A DNA stretch of 33,448 nt from a virus: positions 1 to 33,448 of the IMG/VR virus record IMGVR_UViG_3300030117_001710; one strand, given 5' to 3'. The position numbers and the translations under genes were made by a program. Position 1 is the stretch's first letter; every line of letters begins with the position of its first letter. The notes under the pieces were generated by a model, which searched no databases, was not told where the DNA came from, and saw nothing but the letters and a program-made list of their open reading frames with translations. Shown here one piece after another: positions 10,730-31,241 of this stretch.

Positions 10730-13700
10730 ATGCCACAAATTAAACAGAATTTTTCGGGTGCTAAAATGAACAAGGATCTTGATGAGAGAATTGTTCCTAA
10801 AGGCCAATATAGAGACGCTTTAAATATTAAGATATCAACTACTGATAGTGATACTAGTGGTATAGGTAATGTTGGTACTGTTCAAAATTTAGAAGGTAAT
10901 AAATTAATAAGAGCAACATCTACAACAACAGATTATAGTAGTACTCCAAAAAAATCTAAAATAATAGCTAGTATATCAGACGAAGGTAACAATAAATCTT
11001 ATTTCTTTACAGCAGCGCCTGTTCCAAAAGAAGGTTTATTATCAATAGCAAACGCAGATATAACAGGTGCTACAACTACAGAGAGGATTTGGGTTGATAG
11101 TATAACAGAAGTAGAAGCTGTTGGTGATGGGGATAGCACAAATCCAGTTGTTATAGATAGATTTGCTATAACAGGAATAAAGTCAGATGTTTTCACTTTG
11201 TCTAGTGGCAATATAGTAAATGCCGATACATACAAAACAAATACTGCTTCTCAATCAACTCCAGGTAATGGCTATGATCAAATAGTTGTTACAGATGGGA
11301 CTAAGTATAGAGTTGGTATGAACATATATGCTATAAATTCTGGCGGTGTTAATTTACTATCTGACGGTAATGATGAATTTGTTAAAATAACTAGAATAAC
11401 AGGTAATACTTTAACGTTAGCCTCTGAGCAAACTGCAGATTTAAATAACGCTGTAGTATTTAAATTTATATATCCAGAAAGAGTTTTAGAATTTGATTAT
11501 TATACTGGTGATGAATTTGAGACAATAAATGTAATACCATCAGCGTCTATAAACGTGTTAGATAATTTACTTATATGGACTGATGGCAAGAATGAGCCTA
11601 AAAAAATAAACATAGATAGATGTAAAGATGGTTGTTCTTCTACAAATCCTTTTACTACACATACAAAACTACACGTTAACTCTCCTACAACTAACAATCC
11701 ACAAATTATTAGTGAAATTGAACAAATAGGCTTTAATGAAGTATCTGATGATTTATTAAAAGAGCACGTTACTGTAATTAAAAAAGCCCCAACTAACCCA
11801 CCTACTATAGAGGTTAAAAATATTGATAGAGAAGACAACCAAAACTTTCCAATACAATTTAACTTTATTCAAGATGAAACTTTACCAGTTATTAGTGGTA
11901 TTAAATATATTACATTTCCTGATGTTATAGATTTTAGAATAGATGATATTTATAACTTTGACGCTGTTAATGTTGTTGATCCAGTTACTATACGTGTTAA
12001 AATATTAGAAATTGATGAAGCGGATCCAAATCTAGCAAAAACTGAAATTTTATTTATAGATAGTGATTTTACAGCTCAATCCGTTATTAACAGTTGGACT
12101 GTTAGCTTAGAAACTAAAAGACCATTTTTTGAAACTAAATTTGGAAGATTTGCTTATAGATACCAATATGAAGATAATGAATATTCTAGTTTTTCACCTT
12201 GGTCTGATTTAGCTTTTCTTCCTGGTAACTTTCTATATACACCTAGTAAAGGTTTTAATGAAGGCATGGCAAACACCGCTAGATCAATAATTGTTAGAGA
12301 TTGGCTAACTACTAATTACAGTAGACCTCTTGATATTAAAGCTATTGATATACTTTGGAAATCAACAAGTGATGGAGGTGTTTATATAGTAAAAAGTATT
12401 AAAAGAGGTATAGACTCTGAATGGAAGGATATGGTTGACAACCAAAGTTTAAGTAATACTGGTTATTTTACCATAACAACAGAAATGATACATAAAGTTG
12501 TCGAATCTAATCAAACACTTAGAGCTTGGGATAATGTCCCTAGGTATGCAAAAGCCCAAACTATAACTAGTAATAGAATTGTTTATGGTAATTTTACGCA
12601 AGGTTATGATTTAGACGCTAACGTTGGATTATTACAAACTATTGTTTCTAAAAAAGCATTATTTCCAAAACCTAAAAAGTCTATTAAATCACTTAGAAAT
12701 TATCAACTTGGTATTGTTATGGGAGATAAGTATGGTAGAGAAACGCCAGTTATATCTAATGGTTACCAAACTGAAGAAGGTCAAGTGATGCCAGGTACAT
12801 CAAAAATTGAAAAAAGCTTATCTAGTTATTCAAATAAATTTAAAGTACAGCAAAGCTGGACAGATTCTAATCCAACTCAAATGCCTTGGATGGAATACGT
12901 AAAGTATTATGTTAAAGAAACATCTAATGAATATTATAATTTAGTATTAGATAGAACATATGACGCGGGTGATGATACTATTTGGTTAGCTTTTAACTCA
13001 GCTGATAGAAATAAGGTAGATGAAGAAACGTTCTTAATATTAAAAAACGAACATGGTAGTCAAAAAGCAGTAGACGAAGAGGCTAGATATAAAATTATAT
13101 CAATATCAAATGATGCTCCAGATTATATAAAAACTGATGAGAGGGAATTTGATTTAATAGAAATAGATCCTGAAAATATTTACGGTGAAAATTATCCAAA
13201 TACTATAGACGATGCTTCTGTTGCTATTACAGATGCAGTACCTAGAAGATTGTTCGGTTTTAAAACTATAAGAAGTAGTAATTTTCCATTAGTAGATGAT
13301 ATAGAATTTAAAGGAATACCTAAAGTTAAAATAGTAGCACAGTTTACAACTGGTGGTGTTACTTACGAAGCAAAAAGTTCTCTTAAAACAATAACTAGAG
13401 TTTTTGAGGCAGATGATGTTGGTGATGGAGGTGTAGCTATTAGAGAGGAATTTATAGAAGGTGACGTTAGTTTATATAACCGTATATTAACTCAACTTCC
13501 AGATGCTTCTGCGTTACCAATATCAACAGCTGATACTAATACAGATTTTAAATATTACATGCAGCTTGTAGATGCTGTTGTAGAGAACAAGCCTCAATTT
13601 GATGGCAAGTTTTTTGTTAAAATAGCTAAAGATAATATTTTAGAATCTAGAGTTTTAAATAACTCACTAGGTGAATATCAAATTTTAAATACTTATCAAT

Positions 13701-16519
13701 TAGCATTTTTGGCAGATGAGGCAACTAACCCAGCGTTAGATGATAACGAATATGCTTCAGAAATGGATTATGAATCGGCTAGCTGGGGAACTATTGCTCA
13801 GTTTACTAGTTCAAATATAGCTGGAACAACTAGTGACTTACCTAACTTTATAAATCTTAATGGTGACTCTAGCGCTACAGATGATTTCTGGGTATCATGG
13901 TATAATAGTTCAAATAGAACTGCTGATATATTTATAGATAGCGTGCCAGCTTTTAGTGGATTTAATTTACAAACAGAAAATGGTGTAGACGCATTAACTG
14001 ATTTCAACTCTGGGTACACCCCAATGAATACTGTGGATGGTGTTACAAATTGGCATCCACAAGGACTTTCTACTGGATCTTTTACAGATGGCACTTTGGG
14101 TCAATTTACTTTTTCTATGATTGGAAATTTAAATGACGAAGATAATCAACCTTGGCAAGGTACTAATTCTTATTTTAAAAGTAAAATGCAGCAGACTGGT
14201 ACGCTATTCAGATTTAGAGACGATCCTAATCAAGAAATTTATTACGTTGAAGCTACACAAGAGCAATCTATAGGAAACTCAGGGGAAACAATTTCAGGTC
14301 CTATAACTATACAAAGTAAAAACTTTAATAATGATGGCTCAAGTAGTTTTGTAGATAGAGAGTCAATAATAGTTAGATTTAAACGATTAGGATCTAATGG
14401 GCAAATTATATTACCAAATACTGGTTTAGACCCTACTGTGTGGGATCCTAGAGGTACAATTAAACATAATGGTTTTACCAGCATGACTATTGATATAATT
14501 CAAAGGGTTTCAGTTGGTAGCTTGTCAGATGATTCTATAGTTACAAACGCAGCTTGTTTTGAAACAGAACCTAAAGAAGATGTTGGATTAGATATATATT
14601 ATGAAGCTAGTGGAGCGGTGCCAATAAAATTAAAACAAAATAATATAGTATCATTCGTCGGCTCAAATCCGCTTAGAGATAGAGCTAGTAAATTTAGCGT
14701 TGAAAATAGAAAATTAACAAACAATAACAACGTAAGTGTAAACTTAACTGGTGATCCTTATACAAATTCTACTGTAGGACGCGATAATATTTATATAAAA
14801 AGAAAAGTCGTTGCAGATGTGCCTTTAAAAACAATAATTACAGACGGAACTTCTGATGGAGTTTGTCCAGCTATAGGTGACATTGTTAACTTTGAACATC
14901 AAAACGGATTAATTACTAAGTCTAAAATTTTAGATCATTCAAAAGTTTTAAATTCATTAATATGTGTACCTTCAGATAGATACACTATAGCTGGTTATGG
15001 GTTTTCTGTTGAGGCTTTTCCTGATGCCTCTAGTATACAAATCGGTTCTGGGGTTACGAACGTTAATAACATTACGGCTGGAATGCAAGTAACAGGTGAC
15101 AATGTAGATAATGGTACGTTTGTTACTTCTGTTACTCTTATTGGAGATACTTATTATATTAATACAAATCAACAGCTATTAACTTTTGGTGGATTTAATG
15201 ATAATTTTACATTTATTGATGTGACGGGATATTTTAAAATAGATAAAGAAGTATGGAAATATTCTGTAGAATTAGGTTGGTTTAATTGTTATTCATTTGG
15301 TAATGGTGTGGAATCAGATAGAATTAGAGATGACTTTAATGCTCCTCAAATAGATAATGGTGTAAAAGTATCTTCTACGTTTTTAAATTATGGAGAAGAA
15401 AATAAAACTAGTGGTATGATATTTTCAGGCTTGTATAACTCTACGTCAGGTGTTAATAACTTGAATGAGTTTAATATGGCTGAAAAAATCACAAAAGATC
15501 TAAATACTACTTACGGCTCAATACAGGCTATACTAGCTAGAGATAATGATGTTGTTGTTTTTACTGAAGACAAAGTATTAAAGGTTCAATCTGGTGGTAA
15601 AGACGCTTTATTTAACGCTGATGGCAATCCACAGTTAACAGCTACAAATAGAGTATTAGGAACAACAATACCATTTGCTGGGGATTATGGTATATCTAAA
15701 AATCCAGAATCACTAGCGGTAGATAATTATAGAATGTATTTTGCGGACAAGCAAAGAGGGGCTGTATTAAGATTATCTGGTAATGGAATAACACCTATAT
15801 CAGATGTTGGGATGAAAAACTATTTTAGAGAAAACTTAAAATATTATACTAACATAACTGGATCATTTAATGGCATAGATAGTGAGTATAATATTACATT
15901 ACACCAAACTAGTAAGTTTAGCCAAACAACTAGTGAAACAATTTCCTTTAGTGAATCAGCTAAGGGTTGGGTTAGTTTTAAGTCTTTTACTCCGTTAGCA
16001 GCCACTAGCCTTAGTGATAGATACTACTCATCTTATGATAATTCTATATATAAACACCATGATTCAACTGTTTCTAGGAATAATTTTTATGGAACTCAAT
16101 ATAGTTCAGAAATTGAAATTTTATTTAATGAAATGCCTGGTTCTATTAAATCTTTTAAGAATATTAATTATGAAGGTAGCCAAGCTAAAGTAACTGAATT
16201 TACAACTCAATCAGTTGAAGATGCTGCTGGTAATACATTTACAGTTAATGATAACGAATATTATAATTTAACAGCAAAAACAGGTTGGTACACAAGTAGT
16301 ATTGAAACAGATAAGCAATCGGGTAAAATAACGGAATTTGTAGAAAAAGAAGGAAAATGGTTTAACTATATAAATGGAGATACTACAACTGATTCTAATT
16401 TAGACACAAGTGAGTTCTCCGTGCAAGGTATAGGATTTCCGCTAGCTAATCCAACTGACACTCAAACAGAGAGTCAAGTAACAATACAGGCAGTAGATCC
16501 TGATGGAGAAAATTTATAA
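10730..16519 (+). CDS. Very large tail nozzle ('muzzle')-like virion protein
   Basis: 1,929 residues. The N-terminus NFSGAKMNKDLDERIVPKGQYRDALNI (about 6-32) is a recurring opening in large structural proteins of marine and crAss-like phages. LLIWTDGKNEPKKINIDR (about 279-296) and, near the C-terminus, ARDNDVVVFTEDKVLKV (about 1603) and NYRMYFADKQRGAVLRLSGNG (about 1665-1685) are the blade-like repeats expected of a beta-propeller tail hub such as P22 gp10 or T7 gp12, to which the crAss001 muzzle is related. Those are shorter, so about a thousand residues in the middle are extra, beta-rich and Asp/Asn/Thr-rich, and may be surface domains. No enzymatic motif was found. Position after two ring proteins supports the call. 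Confidence 0.62.
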   Translation: MPQIKQNFSGAKMNKDLDERIVPKGQYRDALNIKISTTDSDTSGIGNVGTVQNLEGNKLIRATSTTTDYSSTPKKSKIIASISDEGNNKSYFFTAAPVPKEGLLSIANADITGATTTERIWVDSITEVEAVGDGDSTNPVVIDRFAITGIKSDVFTLSSGNIVNADTYKTNTASQSTPGNGYDQIVVTDGTKYRVGMNIYAINSGGVNLLSDGNDEFVKITRITGNTLTLASEQTADLNNAVVFKFIYPERVLEFDYYTGDEFETINVIPSASINVLDNLLIWTDGKNEPKKINIDRCKDGCSSTNPFTTHTKLHVNSPTTNNPQIISEIEQIGFNEVSDDLLKEHVTVIKKAPTNPPTIEVKNIDREDNQNFPIQFNFIQDETLPVISGIKYITFPDVIDFRIDDIYNFDAVNVVDPVTIRVKILEIDEADPNLAKTEILFIDSDFTAQSVINSWTVSLETKRPFFETKFGRFAYRYQYEDNEYSSFSPWSDLAFLPGNFLYTPSKGFNEGMANTARSIIVRDWLTTNYSRPLDIKAIDILWKSTSDGGVYIVKSIKRGIDSEWKDMVDNQSLSNTGYFTITTEMIHKVVESNQTLRAWDNVPRYAKAQTITSNRIVYGNFTQGYDLDANVGLLQTIVSKKALFPKPKKSIKSLRNYQLGIVMGDKYGRETPVISNGYQTEEGQVMPGTSKIEKSLSSYSNKFKVQQSWTDSNPTQMPWMEYVKYYVKETSNEYYNLVLDRTYDAGDDTIWLAFNSADRNKVDEETFLILKNEHGSQKAVDEEARYKIISISNDAPDYIKTDEREFDLIEIDPENIYGENYPNTIDDASVAITDAVPRRLFGFKTIRSSNFPLVDDIEFKGIPKVKIVAQFTTGGVTYEAKSSLKTITRVFEADDVGDGGVAIREEFIEGDVSLYNRILTQLPDASALPISTADTNTDFKYYMQLVDAVVENKPQFDGKFFVKIAKDNILESRVLNNSLGEYQILNTYQLAFLADEATNPALDDNEYASEMDYESASWGTIAQFTSSNIAGTTSDLPNFINLNGDSSATDDFWVSWYNSSNRTADIFIDSVPAFSGFNLQTENGVDALTDFNSGYTPMNTVDGVTNWHPQGLSTGSFTDGTLGQFTFSMIGNLNDEDNQPWQGTNSYFKSKMQQTGTLFRFRDDPNQEIYYVEATQEQSIGNSGETISGPITIQSKNFNNDGSSSFVDRESIIVRFKRLGSNGQIILPNTGLDPTVWDPRGTIKHNGFTSMTIDIIQRVSVGSLSDDSIVTNAACFETEPKEDVGLDIYYEASGAVPIKLKQNNIVSFVGSNPLRDRASKFSVENRKLTNNNNVSVNLTGDPYTNSTVGRDNIYIKRKVVADVPLKTIITDGTSDGVCPAIGDIVNFEHQNGLITKSKILDHSKVLNSLICVPSDRYTIAGYGFSVEAFPDASSIQIGSGVTNVNNITAGMQVTGDNVDNGTFVTSVTLIGDTYYINTNQQLLTFGGFNDNFTFIDVTGYFKIDKEVWKYSVELGWFNCYSFGNGVESDRIRDDFNAPQIDNGVKVSSTFLNYGEENKTSGMIFSGLYNSTSGVNNLNEFNMAEKITKDLNTTYGSIQAILARDNDVVVFTEDKVLKVQSGGKDALFNADGNPQLTATNRVLGTTIPFAGDYGISKNPESLAVDNYRMYFADKQRGAVLRLSGNGITPISDVGMKNYFRENLKYYTNITGSFNGIDSEYNITLHQTSKFSQTTSETISFSESAKGWVSFKSFTPLAATSLSDRYYSSYDNSIYKHHDSTVSRNNFYGTQYSSEIEILFNEMPGSIKSFKNINYEGSQAKVTEFTTQSVEDAAGNTFTVNDNEYYNLTAKTGWYTSSIETDKQSGKITEFVEKEGKWFNYINGDTTTDSNLDTSEFSVQGIGFPLANPTDTQTESQVTIQAVDPDGENL

Positions 16520-20213: not shown

Positions 20214-23200
20214 ATGATAAAATATACATTAAATGGTGAGACTTTTAACGTCGATCCACAACACGAAACACAATTCAAAATAGATAATCCTGAAGCTCAA
20301 AAAGTCGAAGAGCCGGGAAAGAAGGAACGCTCCACGACGGAAACGCCGGAGGAGCGAATCACAGAGACGGATCAGTCTCAAAAAAATCAAAAAAAAGATA
20401 CGGAATTATTATCGGAAAAATCTTCTTCGGAATCGAAATCTAAAGATTCTTATTGGTTAGATATTATAGCTGGTGGAGTAAAACCCGCAGAATCAACCTT
20501 TGATAAAGAAGTAAAAGAAAAAGAAATTGCAATAAAAAATAATAAAGATTTTCATGATGGGAAACTTGATGTAGACTCTCTACCTGGTTATGATCCCGCA
20601 ACAGAAACTTATATAGTAGGTAATCGTCGAATAAGAGTTCCAGGTGCTAGTGATCTTTCATTTTCACAAAAATTAGAAACATTAGAACATCATACTTATG
20701 ATGAATTTGAAGATATGTTTGGGGTGCATAAGGTAAATAAAGGTAATAGATGGGGTCAAAAAGTTGCAGGTGCTAAAAAATACAGTGGAAATAAATTTTA
20801 CGGAAAAGATGAATATGAAGATATCGTAGAGTGGTTTAATAGAAAAAGTAATTATGCTAAAACCGGATTAAAACTTAATCTAACAAGTAAAAGATACGGT
20901 AAGGTAGAGTTATTGGAACCGGGTCAAGAAGAAGGTAGTGGCGTATCATTTAATATGTCTGACCCTGAGTTTTATAATAACCTTCAAACTCAAATTAAAA
21001 CAATAGCTAACCCTAATACTCTAGAAGAAACTTATGATTATTTAGGTGACTTAATAAGTCCAGAGTTACTTAAATTAACTGATAATGATACGGGTTATTT
21101 TCCAGCTAATAGAAAGCTTTTTAAAAACTCTATGGACGTAATAAATGCCACTATACAAACAACCCCATTTGAAAGTAATAGAGAAAAAGAAATATTAAAT
21201 AGTTTACCAGAAAAAGTATACGATGAGTCTCAAGCGGAAATAGGAAAAATTTCTATTTCTGCTAATATGGATGACTACAAAGATCCTCGTGTTGATTGGA
21301 GTCAAATTAGCGAAGAAGATATAGCTAAAATGAAAAAAGATCCTGAGTATAATTTTTTGTTTGAAATTCCAAGTATAACATTAGCAAGTCCAGGTTCAGA
21401 TTATTTTGATCCCACAATTAAACTTTCTAAAGAACAAATTAATGCATTTTATAAAAACTCTTCAAAATCCAAGCAATTAACCGCAAATTTGCGAATGCTA
21501 GAAACCCCTGAATACGATGGATACGCACAGTGGATTACTTACCGAGAAAATTATGACGCTGAGCTGGCTTTAGATAATGGTCAAATAATATTACCTAATG
21601 GAGATAAAGTTAGTTATGATTGGATTTGGGCAAATAGAGATGCTATACATCATCATAAAACATCAAAACAAAACTTAGAATTTGAAGAAAAAGAAAAACA
21701 GAGGGTTTACGAAAATCAAGTTGATGAAAATCTTAAAGAAAAGAAGAAAGCTGGGGATCATCCAGAGGTAAATGGTTTTACATACGAGCAAGATCCAGAT
21801 AATTATAAACTTCAATTACTAGCAGAAGATTATAAAAATAAAGCTTATAAGTCAGGGTACATTACTCTGGGTTATAACTCAAAAGTTGACGAAAAAATTA
21901 ACGATGTGGTTCATGATATGGAGGAGTTTGAAGAAAATTACAAAGGTGATAAACCTTTGCACCAAGTAAAAGAATATCAAGAATTAGTTTTAAAGAAAAA
22001 AACTTTATATGAAGAGGCTGGCTACAGTAGAGACATGATGCTGTATGATAAAGACGGTAAGTTTATAGATATAGATAAAGCGTGGGAGTGGCATGAAGAT
22101 AAAGGTGTATGGATACATAAAGAAACTAAAGAAGAAATAGTACCTACAGTTAATGAAGATGAGGCTGTAGAGATATCTAAAAATGATTTACAAAACTTAG
22201 AACAAATGTTTGTAGATGAAGTTATAAATGTGACCAACATTGTCAAACAAATGAATGATCAAGGTCCAGATAGATATCTTGATCAGTTTGCAGGTAGTTT
22301 TAAATATGCAAAGTATCATCCAGATTTAAAGTTTGCATCTGGCCAAAGAGATATAATAGCGGAGGCAGCTTTAGCGGGTGATATATTTTTAAATGATTTC
22401 CCTTTACCTATTTATCATGATAGTGCTGAGGGTATACTTGCTGAGTATAATAAATCTATGAAAAAAATGGCTACACTTTATAGAGCCATGCAACTTAATG
22501 TTAACCCTCTAAAAGATGATTCAAACAGTATGTGGCATGAACTCTGGACTCATACAAAGCGAAAATCAATTGGTGGAGACTATATTATTGGTGATGAGGC
22601 CGCAGATGCTTTTGAACAAGTTTTTACTGAAAGCGTTGGAGGTAGTGAATATATTTTAGGTACAGATCCTGATAAAAGAGAGGGAACTGGTAGAAAGTGG
22701 TTTGATACAATCTCTAAAGGCGTTGTTGATATAGGTGAGTTAAGTTTAGCAATAGCGGTTACTAATAGAGCATTAGGGGTTTCTAAATTTTTTAATCTTT
22801 TAGAAAAAGGATACAAGGCTAAAAAAGCTTATCAAAAATCTTCTACATTTAAAAAACTTTTAATGAACACAGCTTTTAATGCTAATAAGACTTTTGTTGA
22901 ATGGTCAGCTGGTGAGGGTTTTTGGACAGCGATGACGGGTAATGAGTTACAGCAAACATTCTATTGGGATGGCGATAAAGGTGAATACGTGATACACCCT
23001 TGGGCACCTTGGGCTATGGGTGGTGGTATGACATTACATACAGCTGCTAGAACATGGCTTCATAAATCTATGATGAAGAAATCGCCAAAGTATAGACAAC
23101 TGAACGATATAACACCCTCATTGTTTAAAGAATTTTCAAACACGTTAGGTGCTGGTACCACACCAGCGCTTTTGTTAGCTAATGGTGAAATTGCACATCA

Positions 23201-26200
23201 GTTTCTTACTACTGGTAAAGTAAATTTTACAAATGAATACGATGAAAATGGAAACCTTATATCACCTAGTATATTTGGGCCTGAAGGTTTTAAGTCACTT
23301 GGTGAAAGTATTGCAATGTTTGCAACTTATAGTGTATTAAGAGGTAGAGGAAATCCTTTTTATGAAGCTGCTAAAAAAGATATATTTAAACTTAGAGGTT
23401 TAGATGTAGACCAAGTAAAACACTCAAAAAAACTTAAAATAGATAATAAAGAAACAGATGCGGATGGTATAATAGATTCTCATGTTATAGATGATGCTAA
23501 GAAGAAAGAAACAAAGAAAGTTGATAAAGAAATAAAAAAAGTAGAAAAAGATAACAAGCTTTCAGCGGAAGAGAAGGGTAATAAAATAACAGAATTAGAG
23601 CAGAAAAAAAAGGAAATCGAAGAAGCTGCTAAAGCATTAGAAACTTACAATATAATTAATGAAGGAAGAGCTATTGCAAGAGAAGATAATAAGTATGATG
23701 ACTATTTACTAAAAGAGTTTTTAGAAACAGATGCTTTTAATCAATTACGCCAAGGTATAGATAATATGAGTAGCGAGCAGTTAGAATTGATTGGGTCAAG
23801 ATATGGAATGACTGATCAAGCTTTGTCTGCGTTATATTATAAGTTAGGTATTAAGCCTGGTTCTGAAACAGCGGATTATTATGATTATGTTGTACGACAA
23901 ATAAGATCTGGGGTAGAAAGATTAGATTTTTTTAAAATACCAAAAACAAGTAAAAAGGGTAAAAAAGCTAGAGAAGAGTATTTAAAAAGTATGCATGAGG
24001 TAAGTTTTAATGAAATGAAAATTACCCAATTACAAGCTGACTCTAAAGAAAACCCAAACAATAAGCTTAAGAATGATACAGAAATAAAAAACTTAAAAGA
24101 AACAAACAAAGAGCTTTATGAAAATATTACAAATACAGAAAAAAAATTCCATGAAAATTTTAAAGATTATTTAAAAAGAGAAAATGATTATTTAAAGAAA
24201 ATTGTAACAGAGTATGGCGGGCAAGTAAGTAAGAAAACGGGTAAACCAACTAAATTTAGCTATAAAGCTTTAAACACTAAGGCATTTAAAAATGCTATAG
24301 AGAAAAAAGAAAATGGAAAGTGGGATGACAGTATGGGTGCTTTTATTTCTGCTGATGGTAAAAGAATATATATAGATAAACAAAAAGCATATAAAGAAAA
24401 ATCTTTAGGTAAAGGTTTACACGAGATTGGTCATTTAATATTATTTAGCCATTTAAAAACTACAAATAAAAAAGGCGAAAGAGTTATAAGTGAGGAGGGT
24501 ATAGCTATTATAGATAGAATGTTAGACATGCTACCAGGTGGTAGACTTGGTAAGGAATTCTTAGAGCTTCAAAATGAAATAGATATAAACTATAGATATG
24601 AGGTTGATGTAGATGCTACTATAAAAAGTATGCTTGAGGGAAAAGATAAGTTGATATTTAAAAAAGACAAGAATGGTAAACGTATTGAACGTAAAAAAGA
24701 AGAGTACTATGAAGAGTATGTTGGTAAATTAATAGAATTCATAAGAGATGGTAAAATAAAACCTTCTACAGATTTAGGTGGTAGAATAGGTAGAGCATTT
24801 TATCCTGTATTAAAAAACTATCTACCTAGTTTATATAAGTTTGATATAAACCGATCAAATAGTAAGAAGGCTGGTGAAGACATGATGAAGTTTGTACAGT
24901 GGCTTGGCACAATGGGTCCTACCCAAAATATACTTGATATTGGTATAGGCGGTAGAGGTTCTAGTGGAACTAGTAGTATTCAAAAATCACGTGATATAAA
25001 TAGTCAAATACCTAAACTTGAAAAAGGATCTGAAGTTATTGTCGAAAGAAATACCGCAATACATGACATATTACTCACCCGTGCTAAAGAAAAATTTGGT
25101 GATAACTGGAAAAAAATATTAGATAGTGACATAAAAGAATATAAAACTGAAAAAAAAGAATTTGTTGAAGAAACTTCTGACTTAAGAAATGCTATAGTAG
25201 AAAATAATAAAAACGTAGCACATTGGATGGCAGCGCACCCTAAATACGGTGGTAAAGGTGGATACAGCGGTATAGAAGGTGATATATTAGTTGATAAGAA
25301 TAAGTTTTTTGAAAAGTTTGAAGATCAACTACGTGAATTAAGTAGAACCTACAATCCAGCTAAAAATACTGCTATTGGAGCTTACTTATTTCAGACTATA
25401 AAGAAAAGATACCCAGGAATAATGGATCAATTAGCTCCTGAAACTAGAACTAGATCTTTAACTACGGAAGATGGTAAAGTAATTGATGTAAAAGATATTG
25501 CTAACTATGAGCGATTTGAAGGTTTAAATATACTTGAAATAGAACTTAGAAAAAGTAATAAGGCTAAACTAACTGAAGAAGCTAAAACTACAATATTAAA
25601 ATCTGAATTAAGAAGAAGTTTGGGCATAGAAGATGCTCAAAAAGAAAAAATATTTGAGCAAGTAAAAAAAGATTTACAAATAACAAAATCTCCCATAGGT
25701 ACAAAGAAAAAGAATTTTTTAACATCACTAAAAAAAGCGACAGAAAACTCTCATTATGATATTTTAGATAAATCATTAACCACTGAAAAAATAATTGAAC
25801 TGAAAGATGTTATTTTAAAATCTATACCTTTATCAGATTTAGTTCAATTAGGTAAATTTTTGCCACAAGGAAATATATTTGTAAAAACATATAGTCACCC
25901 AACAAAAACTAAATGGAGCGCGGAAGCAGATTTAATGGAGTTTATGGGTTTTAAACCTGATGGTACTAAGTTATATAACTTTAGGAAAGGTTTTACTGTT
26001 AATACTTCTGGAAAAAATTTATTACCAGAAATGAGAAGTTTGTACGAGGCGTATTCTAAACTACCGGAAGAAACTTTTAAAGAAGGTGAGATAGCACAAA
26101 AAGAATCAGCTGAATATAAAGAGTTCAAAAAGAAACAAAAAGTTGGTTTTCCTAAAATATATGAAAGATTAGATGTTGGTGTTAGTGAATGGAGAGCGTA

Positions 26201-29200
26201 CGTAGAGGCTACTACCAAGGGTAATAGACAGATTGCGGAAAAATCTGGTACTAAAACTAATAATAGAAATAATATAATAAGAAAAATGTCTACATCTTTA
26301 ACTAAAGATGCTATACCAGAATTACTTGAAACAAATAAAGATTTTGTTGATAAATACATGGACATTAAAGGTCTAGAAAATATAGAAGCTAAAGCCTTAA
26401 TAGAGCAGTTTATTAATAGCATAGACAGAAGACAAGGCTTGCAATTTTCTAGAAATGCAAAAGGTCAAATAATGTCAGGTATAGAATTTGGTGCTAAAGA
26501 AAAGCAGAGACTTTGGGATATTATTGAAACTACTATGGGTGATTTCCATAGAGTCTTTGATATAAAAGTTTTAGAAAAAGGTAAAGCTCATCTTGCTTTA
26601 ACTAAAGATTATAAAGATAAATTAAGTGTAGCTGAAGCTGATATGATTCTTGACTTATTCTTAAAAAATAAAATAAATGACATTCCTTATATTTTAGGTA
26701 AAATAAATCAAAAGATAAAACCTGGTGATACTAGAAGTAAAGGAGCTGGAGAGCAATGGGGTATTAATAGAATATTCAAAATAAGAGAGTTAACTGGAAT
26801 GGAGATCGATGTTGTTAAGGAGCAGACGGAAGTTGGTGATGCTGCTGATATACAAGGTAAAATATTAGAAGGTTACGCGGGTCAACCAGGAATACCATTT
26901 AATATAGAATATAAACTATCAGCACAAGGGGCACAATATGGTAGCGTTAGTGGATCTATAACAAAAGTAGGTAATAAATACTCTATATCAACTACTGGTA
27001 AATTAACTGGCGTTAATAAACTAGATGCTTATAGTAAAGAAAATAGAGAGAAAATTGAAAAGCTATTAATGGATGTTATTCCTGGCCATAAAATTATGGT
27101 AAAAAAGTTAAACGATCTAGGTAAAATGGATTTAGGTTGGACAGAGCTAGAAAGAAAACAATTATTAGAGTATAAAAATATTGGAGACCCATACCCAAAT
27201 AAAGTTCATAGGGATTTTATAAAATCAAAAGATTCTAAAACTGGAAAAAGTATTTTAAGTGGATTAGAAACTATTGGTAAATTTAATGAAACAATACTTG
27301 TGGATCATTATATTAATGAAAAATTATTTTTAGGTAAAGATCCTTCACGTCATATTATTCTTGGAGAAGACTTGTATCATATTGGAGAAAATATTTTAGG
27401 GACAAATACAACTAAATTAACTGGTAGTTTTTTAGGTGGGTGGAGAGGATTTAAAGCAACGTTACCACGAACAATATATACTTACAAGGGTAAAGAATAT
27501 ACTACGGATGATTTATCTGTTTCAAATATGAAAGATAGATTGTTAGCTAAGGAAATAAAAACTAAAGGAGTTAAATCTGAAGATAGAAATACTGTTAGTC
27601 TAATGTTAAGATTTCATCCATTTAAACCTAAAATAGATGCTGAATCTAAAGCTAAAATAACAACGGATTTAGATTTAAAAAATATATTTACTAAAGAAAG
27701 TTATGAAGCTTTAAAGGCAAAGCAAGTTGCTAAATCACAAGGTCAAGCATCAAAAAATATTAAAAATGTTATTGATTTTGCTAATGGTAAAAATAAAAGA
27801 CAAGGTGGTTCTGTTTTTGATTTTGATGGTACAATTGGTAATACAAAATCTGGAGTTAGAGTAACAATGCCTAATCCTAGCGGAACACCTAAGCCAAAAC
27901 GTAAAGTTATATTTTTAGCTGGTGGAGCTGGTAGTGGTAAAGGTAATGTGATTAAAAAATTAGGTTTAGAAAAAGATGGTTTCAAAATAGTTAACTCAGA
28001 TATATCATTAGAGTGGTTAAAAAAGAATCACGGTTTACCTGAAAATATGAATGAATTAACAAAAGAACAAAGAAGTATATTAGGTAAATTAGGTCATGAG
28101 TCTAGGCAAATAGCTAAACGTAAAATGATGAAGTACCAAGGTAAAGCAGATGGTGTTGTTATTGATGGTACTGGTGGATCTGTTAAAACAATGGAGAAGC
28201 TTGTTAAAGAGTTTAAAGATAAAGGTTATGATACTAGTATGTTATTTGTAGAAACTTCATTAGATGTAGCCTTAGCACGTAATAGAGCTAGAAAGGAAAG
28301 ATCATTGCTGGACATTATAGTTAAACGTAATCATGAGGCTGTTCAAAAAAACAAACCAACATTTACAGAAATGTTTGGTGAAAGATTTATGGAAATTAAA
28401 ACAGATAACCTAAAACAAACAGACGCAATGCCTAGAGAGCTTGTTGAAAGAATGAAAGACTTTGTTAGTGGTTATGAAAAAATTAGATTAGATGCTGAAG
28501 AGTTTGCTGATAAGGGTGAAGTAATTAAAAATAAAGGAGGTGAATTTGACTTTTCTGAATTTAATAAAGTTATAGATGGTACACCAGGTCCATACTTAGA
28601 AAAACTAAGAGAAAGAGTAAAAGACTTTGGAAATAAAGATGTGTTTGTTTTAACAGCTAGACCACAACAGTCCGCTACTGCTATACATGAATTTTTGAAA
28701 GAACAAGGTATAGACATACCAATAGAGAATATAACTGGTTTAGCTAATAGTACTGGTGCTGCTAAAGCTAAATGGATGTTAGAAAAATATGCAGAAGGTT
28801 ATAACGATTTATATTTTGTAGATGACGCTTATCAAAACGTTAAAGCTGTTAAAGACGTATTAGAACAACTTGATGTTAAATCAAAAGTAGTTCAAGCTAA
28901 AGCTCAATTTAGTAAAGATATAAATTCAACGTTTAATGAAATTATAGAAAGAAGATCTGGTATTGATGCTGGTAAAAAAATGTCTTTAGCTGAAGCAAAA
29001 GCTTTAGGTAAAAGTAAAGGACGTTTTGACTTTTTTGTTCCAGCTTCCGCTGAAGATTTAAAAGGTTTAACATATAGATTACTTGGCAAAGGCAAACAAG
29101 GTGATGCTGATATGAGATTTTTCAAAAAAGCTTTATTCGATCCATTTGCTAAAGGTACTAGAAATTTAACTATTGTTAAACAAAAAATGGCTGAAGAATA

Positions 29201-31241
29201 TTCTACATTAAAAAAGAAATCTAAAAATATAAAACTAAATAAAAAAGTAGAAGGAACACCATATACAGTTGACACTGCTATTAGAATGTACTTATGGGAG
29301 AAAGCTGGTTATGAAGTACCTGATATAAATAAATCAGAAAAAAGAACATTAGTAGATTACGTTAAAAGTAAACCTGAATTAATTTCATTTGCTGAAACGT
29401 TAGGTGCTATAAGTAGAGTAAAAGAAGGTTATGAGAAACCTAGTGAATATTGGATGATAGAGAATATAGGTTCTGACTTAAATAATATAACATCGAATAG
29501 AGCTAGAAAGGAATTTTTATACGAATGGATTGAGAATAAAAATATACTATTTTCACCTGAAAATTTAAATAAATTAGAAGCTACTTTTGGCAAAAGCTAT
29601 AGACAGGCTTTAGAGAACATGTTAACTAGAATGGAAAAAGGTACTAACAGGTTACATGGTATAAAGGACGGTCCTACAAAATGGTGGTATGATTGGGTGA
29701 ACGGTTCAGTTGGCGCGACAATGTTCTGGAATACTAGATCTGCCATGCTGCAAACTATTTCTATGATGAACTTTACTAATCATGCAGAGAATAATATATT
29801 TGCACAAGCTAGAAACTTTGCTAACCAAAAACAATTTTGGAAAGACTTTGTTATGTTATATAATTCACCAATGTTGAAGCAAAGAAGAGCTGGTTTAGAA
29901 ATAGATGTATCAGCTTCGGAAATACAAAATATGTTTTCTGCAAGTGGTAGAGATCCTAGAGCTATATTAAGATACATGTTAGAAAAGGGATTTACTCCTA
30001 CTCGAATGGCGGATAGCTTTGCTATAGCGATGGGTGGTTCTAGTTTTTATAGACAAAGATTTAAAAAGTACAAAAAGCAAGGTTTTTCTGATATAAAAGC
30101 TAAAGAAAAAGCAATGCTTGATTTTCAAGAAATAGCAGAAGAAACACAGCAATCTTCTAGACCAGACTTAATATCACAACAACAAGCTGGTCCATTAGGT
30201 AGATTGATATTAGCATGGCAAAATACACCTATGCAGATGACTAGGTTAATGAAGAGGTCGCTATCTGATATTGTTAATAGAAGAACAATAGAAGGTCAAT
30301 CGCAAATGCAAAGTGATATGTCAAATATTTCTAGAATTATTTATTATGGTGCAATACAGAATTTATGGTTTGGAACACTACAATCAGGTTTAGCATGGTT
30401 AATGTTTGGTTCAGATCAAGATGATGAGTTTAAAAAGAAAGAAAGAAACATATTAAATGGAGCCTTTGATACATTGTTAAGAGGTACTGGTATTTACGGA
30501 GCCGCTATATCAACAGGTAAGAATACATACCTTAAATATAAAGAAGAAAGAGACAATCCTTTTTGGAAACAAGATTACGGTAACGTCGCTGTAGAAGCTA
30601 TAAATTTATCACCACCAATAGGTAGTAAAGTTAGAAAAGTTTACAGTGCTATAAAAGGTTGGGGTAAATATAAATCAGCTGAAATAGGAAAAGAGATGGG
30701 ATTGAGAATTGATAATCCAGAATTAATGAATATTGCTAATATTATTGAGGCTACTACAAATATACCTTTAGCTAGATTATTAAATAAATCTAGTAATTTA
30801 GAAGAAGCAATTACAGGTAATCACGAATGGTGGCAGCGAACAGCGATGGCTTTAGGATGGAGTAGATGGAACGTTGGTGTTAAAGATGAAGAAGTGGAAG
30901 AAGCTAGAGAAAGATTAAAAATTAAAAATAGAGAAAAGAAGAAAGAAGAAAAAAGAAAAGAAAAAGAAGAAAAGAAAATACAAGAAGAAAAAGAAAAGAA
31001 AGAAAAAGGAATCAAAACTGTTCAGTGCTCTGGTATACGATCTAATGGGGTAAGGTGTGGTAATACTACGGAAACAGCAGATAAAACTTGGAAGTGCTAT
31101 CATCATGCTAAATTTACAGATGGTATGGATAGAGACGGCGATGGTAAGAAAGAATATAGGTGTACAGCCACAAAAAAGAACGGTGAGAGATGTAAGAACA
31201 AGACAGAGAATAAAAATAAAAAATGTTATGCTCACCAATAA
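20214..31241 (+). CDS. Giant multidomain virion protein: HExxH peptidase, split HAD phosphatase with nested P-loop kinase, tandem Cys/His modules
   Basis: 3,675 residues, a third of the window, resembling 'large polyvalent' phage proteins thought to be ejected with the DNA. In order: N-terminal MIKYTLNGETFNV and a disordered linker; a hydrophobic segment near 845-860; a zinc-peptidase motif HEIGH (H1403, E1404, H1407) with a possible third ligand at E1427/E1428; a weakly sigma-like helix pair near 1710; an ExK pair (E2232, K2234) that may be nuclease-like; a HAD motif I DFDGT (2536-2540); a P-loop kinase (Walker A GGAGSGKG, 2570-2577) of about 200 residues; HAD motifs II T2814, III K2851 or K2853, IV D2870/D2871; hydrophobic helices near 3170, 3327 and 3375-3400; a Lys/Glu-rich helix; and two Cys/His modules. 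No signal peptide. Roles are inferred; the reading frame itself is certain. Confidence 0.78.
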   Translation: MIKYTLNGETFNVDPQHETQFKIDNPEAQKVEEPGKKERSTTETPEERITETDQSQKNQKKDTELLSEKSSSESKSKDSYWLDIIAGGVKPAESTFDKEVKEKEIAIKNNKDFHDGKLDVDSLPGYDPATETYIVGNRRIRVPGASDLSFSQKLETLEHHTYDEFEDMFGVHKVNKGNRWGQKVAGAKKYSGNKFYGKDEYEDIVEWFNRKSNYAKTGLKLNLTSKRYGKVELLEPGQEEGSGVSFNMSDPEFYNNLQTQIKTIANPNTLEETYDYLGDLISPELLKLTDNDTGYFPANRKLFKNSMDVINATIQTTPFESNREKEILNSLPEKVYDESQAEIGKISISANMDDYKDPRVDWSQISEEDIAKMKKDPEYNFLFEIPSITLASPGSDYFDPTIKLSKEQINAFYKNSSKSKQLTANLRMLETPEYDGYAQWITYRENYDAELALDNGQIILPNGDKVSYDWIWANRDAIHHHKTSKQNLEFEEKEKQRVYENQVDENLKEKKKAGDHPEVNGFTYEQDPDNYKLQLLAEDYKNKAYKSGYITLGYNSKVDEKINDVVHDMEEFEENYKGDKPLHQVKEYQELVLKKKTLYEEAGYSRDMMLYDKDGKFIDIDKAWEWHEDKGVWIHKETKEEIVPTVNEDEAVEISKNDLQNLEQMFVDEVINVTNIVKQMNDQGPDRYLDQFAGSFKYAKYHPDLKFASGQRDIIAEAALAGDIFLNDFPLPIYHDSAEGILAEYNKSMKKMATLYRAMQLNVNPLKDDSNSMWHELWTHTKRKSIGGDYIIGDEAADAFEQVFTESVGGSEYILGTDPDKREGTGRKWFDTISKGVVDIGELSLAIAVTNRALGVSKFFNLLEKGYKAKKAYQKSSTFKKLLMNTAFNANKTFVEWSAGEGFWTAMTGNELQQTFYWDGDKGEYVIHPWAPWAMGGGMTLHTAARTWLHKSMMKKSPKYRQLNDITPSLFKEFSNTLGAGTTPALLLANGEIAHQFLTTGKVNFTNEYDENGNLISPSIFGPEGFKSLGESIAMFATYSVLRGRGNPFYEAAKKDIFKLRGLDVDQVKHSKKLKIDNKETDADGIIDSHVIDDAKKKETKKVDKEIKKVEKDNKLSAEEKGNKITELEQKKKEIEEAAKALETYNIINEGRAIAREDNKYDDYLLKEFLETDAFNQLRQGIDNMSSEQLELIGSRYGMTDQALSALYYKLGIKPGSETADYYDYVVRQIRSGVERLDFFKIPKTSKKGKKAREEYLKSMHEVSFNEMKITQLQADSKENPNNKLKNDTEIKNLKETNKELYENITNTEKKFHENFKDYLKRENDYLKKIVTEYGGQVSKKTGKPTKFSYKALNTKAFKNAIEKKENGKWDDSMGAFISADGKRIYIDKQKAYKEKSLGKGLHEIGHLILFSHLKTTNKKGERVISEEGIAIIDRMLDMLPGGRLGKEFLELQNEIDINYRYEVDVDATIKSMLEGKDKLIFKKDKNGKRIERKKEEYYEEYVGKLIEFIRDGKIKPSTDLGGRIGRAFYPVLKNYLPSLYKFDINRSNSKKAGEDMMKFVQWLGTMGPTQNILDIGIGGRGSSGTSSIQKSRDINSQIPKLEKGSEVIVERNTAIHDILLTRAKEKFGDNWKKILDSDIKEYKTEKKEFVEETSDLRNAIVENNKNVAHWMAAHPKYGGKGGYSGIEGDILVDKNKFFEKFEDQLRELSRTYNPAKNTAIGAYLFQTIKKRYPGIMDQLAPETRTRSLTTEDGKVIDVKDIANYERFEGLNILEIELRKSNKAKLTEEAKTTILKSELRRSLGIEDAQKEKIFEQVKKDLQITKSPIGTKKKNFLTSLKKATENSHYDILDKSLTTEKIIELKDVILKSIPLSDLVQLGKFLPQGNIFVKTYSHPTKTKWSAEADLMEFMGFKPDGTKLYNFRKGFTVNTSGKNLLPEMRSLYEAYSKLPEETFKEGEIAQKESAEYKEFKKKQKVGFPKIYERLDVGVSEWRAYVEATTKGNRQIAEKSGTKTNNRNNIIRKMSTSLTKDAIPELLETNKDFVDKYMDIKGLENIEAKALIEQFINSIDRRQGLQFSRNAKGQIMSGIEFGAKEKQRLWDIIETTMGDFHRVFDIKVLEKGKAHLALTKDYKDKLSVAEADMILDLFLKNKINDIPYILGKINQKIKPGDTRSKGAGEQWGINRIFKIRELTGMEIDVVKEQTEVGDAADIQGKILEGYAGQPGIPFNIEYKLSAQGAQYGSVSGSITKVGNKYSISTTGKLTGVNKLDAYSKENREKIEKLLMDVIPGHKIMVKKLNDLGKMDLGWTELERKQLLEYKNIGDPYPNKVHRDFIKSKDSKTGKSILSGLETIGKFNETILVDHYINEKLFLGKDPSRHIILGEDLYHIGENILGTNTTKLTGSFLGGWRGFKATLPRTIYTYKGKEYTTDDLSVSNMKDRLLAKEIKTKGVKSEDRNTVSLMLRFHPFKPKIDAESKAKITTDLDLKNIFTKESYEALKAKQVAKSQGQASKNIKNVIDFANGKNKRQGGSVFDFDGTIGNTKSGVRVTMPNPSGTPKPKRKVIFLAGGAGSGKGNVIKKLGLEKDGFKIVNSDISLEWLKKNHGLPENMNELTKEQRSILGKLGHESRQIAKRKMMKYQGKADGVVIDGTGGSVKTMEKLVKEFKDKGYDTSMLFVETSLDVALARNRARKERSLLDIIVKRNHEAVQKNKPTFTEMFGERFMEIKTDNLKQTDAMPRELVERMKDFVSGYEKIRLDAEEFADKGEVIKNKGGEFDFSEFNKVIDGTPGPYLEKLRERVKDFGNKDVFVLTARPQQSATAIHEFLKEQGIDIPIENITGLANSTGAAKAKWMLEKYAEGYNDLYFVDDAYQNVKAVKDVLEQLDVKSKVVQAKAQFSKDINSTFNEIIERRSGIDAGKKMSLAEAKALGKSKGRFDFFVPASAEDLKGLTYRLLGKGKQGDADMRFFKKALFDPFAKGTRNLTIVKQKMAEEYSTLKKKSKNIKLNKKVEGTPYTVDTAIRMYLWEKAGYEVPDINKSEKRTLVDYVKSKPELISFAETLGAISRVKEGYEKPSEYWMIENIGSDLNNITSNRARKEFLYEWIENKNILFSPENLNKLEATFGKSYRQALENMLTRMEKGTNRLHGIKDGPTKWWYDWVNGSVGATMFWNTRSAMLQTISMMNFTNHAENNIFAQARNFANQKQFWKDFVMLYNSPMLKQRRAGLEIDVSASEIQNMFSASGRDPRAILRYMLEKGFTPTRMADSFAIAMGGSSFYRQRFKKYKKQGFSDIKAKEKAMLDFQEIAEETQQSSRPDLISQQQAGPLGRLILAWQNTPMQMTRLMKRSLSDIVNRRTIEGQSQMQSDMSNISRIIYYGAIQNLWFGTLQSGLAWLMFGSDQDDEFKKKERNILNGAFDTLLRGTGIYGAAISTGKNTYLKYKEERDNPFWKQDYGNVAVEAINLSPPIGSKVRKVYSAIKGWGKYKSAEIGKEMGLRIDNPELMNIANIIEATTNIPLARLLNKSSNLEEAITGNHEWWQRTAMALGWSRWNVGVKDEEVEEARERLKIKNREKKKEEKRKEKEEKKIQEEKEKKEKGIKTVQCSGIRSNGVRCGNTTETADKTWKCYHHAKFTDGMDRDGDGKKEYRCTATKKNGERCKNKTENKNKKCYAHQ
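20328..20356 (+). other. G+C-rich patch with a hairpin inside the giant gene
   Basis: By my count 21 of these 29 bases are G or C, in a genome that is otherwise strongly A/T-rich. CGCTCC (20328-20333) pairs with GGAGCG (20351-20356), with an inner CGG/CCG stem (20338-20340 with 20346-20348) around AAACG. The patch lies in the disordered linker near residue 40-48 and uses codons such as ACG, CCG, GAG and CGC that are rare elsewhere in this window. No T run follows, so it is not a standard terminator. Confidence 0.5.

Follow-up and report, generated by a model that had tools for sequence, protein, structure and literature searches.

A predicted P-loop kinase nested in the flap of a HAD phosphatase-like domain within a giant protein of a marine crassvirus-like phage

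A giant protein of a marine crassvirus-like phage contains a HAD domain that, in sequence alignments and predicted structures, is interrupted in its flap by a complete P-loop kinase. The protein is encoded in the window, that is, the whole 33.4-kb IMG/VR virus record (33,448 nucleotides) analysed here. We take the nesting to be real because it recurs in dozens of related phages and because, in many others, this phosphatase occurs with no kinase in it. As to its class, the region is quite probably a HAD phosphatase that holds a kinase of the AAA_33/polynucleotide-kinase/zeta class in its flap, with activity predicted. A nested kinase had been proposed in a preliminary description of the window, and the positions given there for motif I, Walker A, DGTGGS, the lid, the RLDAEEF stretch (2758), T2814, K2851 and D2870/D2871 agree with translation and alignment. 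The features are as follows.

20214-31241, plus strand: giant ORF of 3675 aa, polyvalent-protein-like, which holds the nested HAD–kinase region
24420-24452, plus strand: HExxH metallopeptidase-like motif HEIGHLILFSH (aa 1403-1413) of the same giant protein
27804-27872, plus strand: HAD part 1, with strand S1, motif I, the squiggle and the first flap strand VRVTMP (aa 2548-2553)
27819-27833, plus strand: HAD motif I, DFDGT (aa 2536-2540), with D2536 and D2538
27873-28472, plus strand: P-loop kinase insert, linkers included (aa 2554-2753)
27903-28469, plus strand: folded core of the kinase (about aa 2564-2752), from Pfam and the strands and helices of the AlphaFold2 model
27921-27944, plus strand: Walker A, GGAGSGKG (aa 2570-2577)
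27999-28001, plus strand: candidate general base of the kinase, Asp 2596 (VNSD), which aligns with D35 of T4 Pnkp
aa 2651-2656: DGTGGS of the kinase
28275-28304, plus strand: Arg-rich lid ARNRARKERS (aa 2688-2697), with R-N-x-x-R
28473-28898, plus strand: HAD part 2 (aa 2754-2895), comprising the KIRLDA region as second flap strand plus the remaining Rossmann domain
28653-28655, plus strand: HAD motif II, Thr 2814 (LTAR), invariant
28764-28766, plus strand: HAD motif III, Lys 2851, invariant
28821-28826, plus strand: HAD motif IV, Asp 2870/Asp 2871 (VDDA), D2871 invariant and D2870 nearly so

Scanning viral contigs with the region returned 74 loci, some with the whole HAD–kinase–HAD arrangement and others with the HAD alone. 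We counted a sequence as distinct if it differed in its first 60 residues or in its spacing, a definition under which some are still close relatives. Motifs I and II lie 78–81 residues apart in 155 distinct plain-HAD sequences and 278 residues apart in 56 distinct nested ones (window included); a further nested sequence, L194, has a spacing of 276, bringing the nested total to 57. The insert makes the spacing 199 residues longer than is commonest in uninterrupted sequences, close to the 200 originally estimated. Its point of entry is constant: in alignment and models alike, every nested sequence carries the kinase at the tip of the flap β-hairpin, and VRVTMP-(kinase)-IRLDAEEFA of the window lines up with VTMP-SGKQF-KIDATEFA of the plain relative L057. 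The segment corresponding to HAD part 1 continues unbroken in plain relatives, and HAD part 2 of the window is about 50–61% identical to most uninterrupted relatives. The agreement of 57 nested and 155 plain sequences on many contigs rules out chance or mis-assembly, and none of 2000 protein shuffles reproduced motif I followed by Walker A at that spacing. A kinase that forms a separate domain behind the HAD does occur in three relatives (L033, L240 and L241/L193), but not in the window, where the insert lies between the flap strands and is no separate C-terminal domain.

Beyond these viral contigs, a scan of host and prophage genome contigs keyed on kinase peptides found no nested copy and only two distant kinases. 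In known phage genomes, tblastn of HAD part 2 and of the C-terminal part after it found nothing, and the matches that did appear were to the kinase only, at 33–39% identity. A BFVD neighbour at 70% identity carries the name UDP-N-acetylglucosamine kinase—probably an automatic label—and relatives have thus already been deposited.

Structure prediction, which the preliminary description had named as a check, gave with moderate confidence the strand order that nesting requires. The AlphaFold2 model of the nested region, built from 31 sequences (mean pLDDT 75.6, pTM 0.63), places S1 at 12–17, a strand at 29–34, the kinase at 45–233, another strand at 235–240 and then the other HAD strands. In the model of the plain HAD (89 sequences, pLDDT 82.5), strands alternate with helices and a hairpin follows S1; as predicted, this HAD has a Rossmannoid core with squiggle and flap, the flap hairpin being formed by the neighbouring strands 24–28 and 34–38. 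The equivalents of these two strands stand on either side of the kinase in the nested model (29–34 and 235–240), and it is from this correspondence that we infer their pairing there.

Both predicted active sites are well preserved among relatives and evolve under purifying selection. In an alignment of 31 nested relatives (alignment position n corresponding to residue n+2519), the HAD residues D2536, D2538, T2814, K2851 and D2871 are invariant and D2870 nearly so; in the kinase, K2576 of the P-loop, D2596, D2651-G-T, R2689, R2693 and R2696 are all invariant. The initial assignment of motif III to K2851/K2853 thus holds for the former residue, whereas K2853 is not conserved in these 31 sequences. 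Motifs I–IV (DxDxT, T/S, K, DD) are conserved in that order in the 31 nested and in 89 plain sequences. When the window is compared with six relatives, identity is 64–87% for the kinase and 62–81% for HAD part 2, as against 27–45% for the preceding 500 aa of the giant protein in the same six. NG86 dN/dS for the kinase and for HAD part 2 is 0.12–0.33, a rough range with synonymous sites well diverged.

To which families do the two enzymes belong? HMM searches gave matches above curated cut-offs for the kinase, but not for its host domain. The kinase alone exceeds the Pfam cut-offs of both AAA_33 (41.8 bits, cut-off 27; 1.7e-10) and Zeta_toxin (PF06414; 37.8 bits, gathering cut-off 22.3; 1.8e-9); AAA_33 scores higher, and the two fit about equally. 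Among PHROGs, an uncharacterised family ranks first (7.7e-19), a polynucleotide-kinase PHROG coming lower (5e-6), and the sequence profile of the kinase comes closest in the PDB, weakly (E 0.003), to 4gp7 and its kin, which Foldseek names polynucleotide kinase. The HAD of uninterrupted relatives, by contrast, matches no curated HAD family above cut-off, and the HAD profile has no close solved relative in the PDB. We base the assignment on the four motifs, a weak match of the uninterrupted HAD to PHROG 415, 'polynucleotide kinase' (1.7e-5), and Foldseek matches of the plain model. The latter include phosphoserine phosphatase, Legionella Ceg4 and EYA2, with weak E-values near 1e-4; of the ten matches at E<=1e-3, nine are HAD phosphatases and the tenth, 6iuy, is a dehydrogenase with a HAD domain.

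The pair is reminiscent of T4 Pnkp (pseT; 2ia5, 1ltq) in content but not in plan, and we therefore do not class it as a Pnkp. Both join a P-loop kinase and a HAD phosphatase in one chain, and Walker A, the base Asp and the R-N-x-x-R lid line up. In the T4 enzyme, however, the kinase precedes the HAD in tandem—side by side, not nested, as had rightly been pointed out—whereas here it lies inside the HAD, within a 3675-aa protein, and the similarity of the HADs is weak, the profile match to the T4 phosphatase spanning motif I only. Moreover, an Arg three residues after the base Asp (D-x-x-R; R38 in T4) is important in PNK kinases, and in the aligned nested sequences this position is Leu. Foldseek of the nested model against the PDB ranks T4 Pnkp first (2.3e-8, 366 columns), ahead of zeta toxin (3q8x, 1gvn) and bacterial polynucleotide kinases; with the HAD alone, Pnkp is not among the PDB matches.

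As for the site of insertion, the flap hairpin is where C1 caps are found in other HADs (PMC8069645). Our domain shares with C1-capped enzymes, phosphoserine phosphatase among them, the four motifs and a domain inserted in that hairpin, but the caps in that account are either helical or of the alpha+beta type, and the insert here is a P-loop kinase. Our search of open-access full text turned up no earlier description of a P-loop kinase at this place in a HAD enzyme.

The genomic setting suggests how such a protein may reach its place of action. Genes in the window run in the order terminase, portal, virion structural proteins, the 3675-aa ORF and an endolysin-like gene, so that the giant ORF is flanked by virion structural genes, with a muzzle-domain gene upstream, and by the endolysin-like gene. 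The terminase shares 63% identity with its counterpart in MW202828, an uncultured podovirus, and 45% with the terminases of Flavobacterium elemo phages, and a 1929-aa structural ORF (10730-16519) ends in a C-terminal crassvirus muzzle domain (PF25729, 1.5e-10). The window is therefore a fragment of a crassvirus-like podophage. In gene place and size, and possibly in its HExxH motif, the protein fits the polyvalent proteins, described in passages of Iyer et al. 2017 (PMC5512222) as very large, multidomain products of genes among those of the virion, with an HExxH motif and interchangeable enzymatic domains, and thought to enter the host with the phage DNA; the passages found there differ from our case in that they hold no HAD domain. 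Crassvirus virions, in turn, carry large cargo proteins (PMC10172136). By gene position and this analogy, the giant protein is probably virion-borne and would be ejected into the cell, as the preliminary description had it. Comparable HExxH motifs are present in 13 of 75 loci scanned, many of which end before reaching that far upstream. A Pfam search gave no peptidase match for the HEIGH-motif region of the giant protein, and no known LPD domain was detected in the protein. Its C-terminus (window 31026-31238) has two similar Cys/His motifs, CSGIRSNGVRC...CYHH and CTATKKNGERC...CYAH, which are possibly small zinc-binding units.

Within the family, the kinase is an add-on, given the three tandem relatives and the lack of any AAA_33 kinase anywhere in 18 plain-HAD contigs. 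The tandem relatives also indicate that the nested geometry is not required. Their kinases adjoin short VDxTTxEG repeats, lying between two copies in L033 and L240; in L242 and L252, two relatives that lack the kinase, the pair of repeats stands by itself. Six relatives hold other inserts in the same HAD hairpin: that of L041 (5587-5985, ~130 residues) resembles ART-PolyVal (E 0.008, under the Pfam cut-off), and those of L040, L058, L060, L108 and L146 are about 22 to 88 residues long. The HAD flap thus looks like an insertion hot spot. As to the number of kinase insertions, the tree of HAD part 2 as found needs six changes for nesting, but by the AU test a single nested clade is also compatible with the data (p 0.243 with L194, 0.753 without). 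L194 (5001-5561) has the most divergent nested kinase (47% identity, spacing 276) and a HAD that groups with non-kinase ones in the tree, and could represent a second insertion or a transfer. More distant kinases (about 24–38% identity) are single genes in other phage contigs and in HTVC008M. The lone kinases of marine T4-like phages (HTVC008M gp129 and those of the Melnitz phages) are 35–39% identical to ours, agree with it in the base Asp and resemble it in the lid, but are separate genes of ~220 aa with no HAD. HTVC008M gp129 (L236, 5953-6615) is annotated as hypothetical and is directly followed by a gene annotated as a cytidyltransferase.

What might the two enzymes do? We propose that the HAD would be the resident enzyme and the kinase an optional, movable second activity, housed either within the flap or immediately after the HAD. 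Both would most likely act after host entry, moving phosphates on nucleotide or nucleic-acid substrates: the kinase would add phosphate from a nucleoside triphosphate, with D2596 as base and the aid of the Arg lid, and the HAD would strip phosphates via an Asp2536–phosphate intermediate. The kinase may also act as a cap that shields or selects the HAD active site. In its full form—a catalytic kinase serving as C1 cap, the nested sites taking turns on one shared nucleotide or nucleic-acid substrate, the whole delivered with the phage DNA—this proposal is tentative and rather unlikely. Alternatively, the pair may be a Pnkp in nested form, in which the HAD removes 3′-phosphates, the kinase phosphorylates 5′-OH ends and a ligase reseals phage DNA (or, less likely, host tRNA) after entry. 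We regard this as possible, if doubtful. The rank of T4 Pnkp as best PDB match of the whole model, the common lid and base Asp, the profile similarity to 4gp7 and its kin and the PHROG 415 match of the uninterrupted HAD all point in this direction, and of the nested contigs, all six that reach 64 kb or more encode an ATP-dependent DNA ligase. However, the ligase is also present in 15/18 plain-HAD contigs and so does not track the kinase, the D-x-x-R arginine is replaced by Leu, and the HAD taken by itself neither retrieves Pnkp from the PDB nor matches the T4 phosphatase profile beyond motif I. When 16 nested contigs were searched with PF09511, PF09414, PF01139 and PF01068, the RNA_ligase matches fell on the same ORFs as the DNA-type ligase, RtcB was not found, and T4 Rnl1 (PF09511) had no match, although this model was silent in the controls too. 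Repair of tRNA via a phage RNA ligase was therefore set aside and is the least supported version of end healing. Hence, the combined 3′-phosphatase/5′-kinase envisaged in the preliminary description is a possible function, favoured by the fold match, lid, base Asp and weak PHROG match and disfavoured by the missing arginine, the HAD's lack of a Pnkp match, the absence of any such kinase from the plain-HAD contigs and the about equal fit of AAA_33 and zeta toxin; its extension to cut nucleic acids, host tRNA nicks included, sits poorly with ligases in kinase-free relatives and the failure to find RtcB.

A different substrate class is conceivable if the kinase were an effector akin to zeta toxin. 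It would then phosphorylate UDP-N-acetylglucosamine or a similar small molecule and so weaken the host wall, and the HAD would be an unrelated chassis whose flap takes up effector domains. The Zeta_toxin score above the Pfam cut-off, the place of 3q8x and 1gvn right after T4 Pnkp in Foldseek, the name of the BFVD neighbour and the further inserts in the same hairpin, one of them ART-PolyVal-like, are in line with such a role. Zeta-toxin-like kinases are also on record as parts of polyvalent proteins and as fusions with MuF, the passages in question (PMC5512222) mentioning no HAD around the kinase. Yet AAA_33 fits about as well, the BFVD name is probably automatic, the ART match falls under its cut-off and, above all, the HAD catalytic residues are conserved more strictly than a mere chassis would need; we consider this scenario unlikely. 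Less probable again, and indeed very unlikely, is a mainly structural C1 cap: the kinase would cover the HAD active site and tune it, and would switch the phosphatase by binding ATP, with no separate substrate. Identical spacing in 56/57 nested sequences would suit a cap, but the kinase has an invariant base Asp and invariant lid arginines, which suggest catalysis, three relatives have the kinase outside the flap, and 155 sequences do without it.

Two of the commonest phosphate-handling folds are joined here by insertion, not fusion, at the very place where HADs evolve substrate-selecting caps. With members that have no insert, a kinase in the flap, a kinase behind the HAD or other flap inserts, the family offers a natural series for studying insertion tolerance and the possible mutual influence of two nested enzymes, a pair with which marine crassvirus-like phages probably enter their host.
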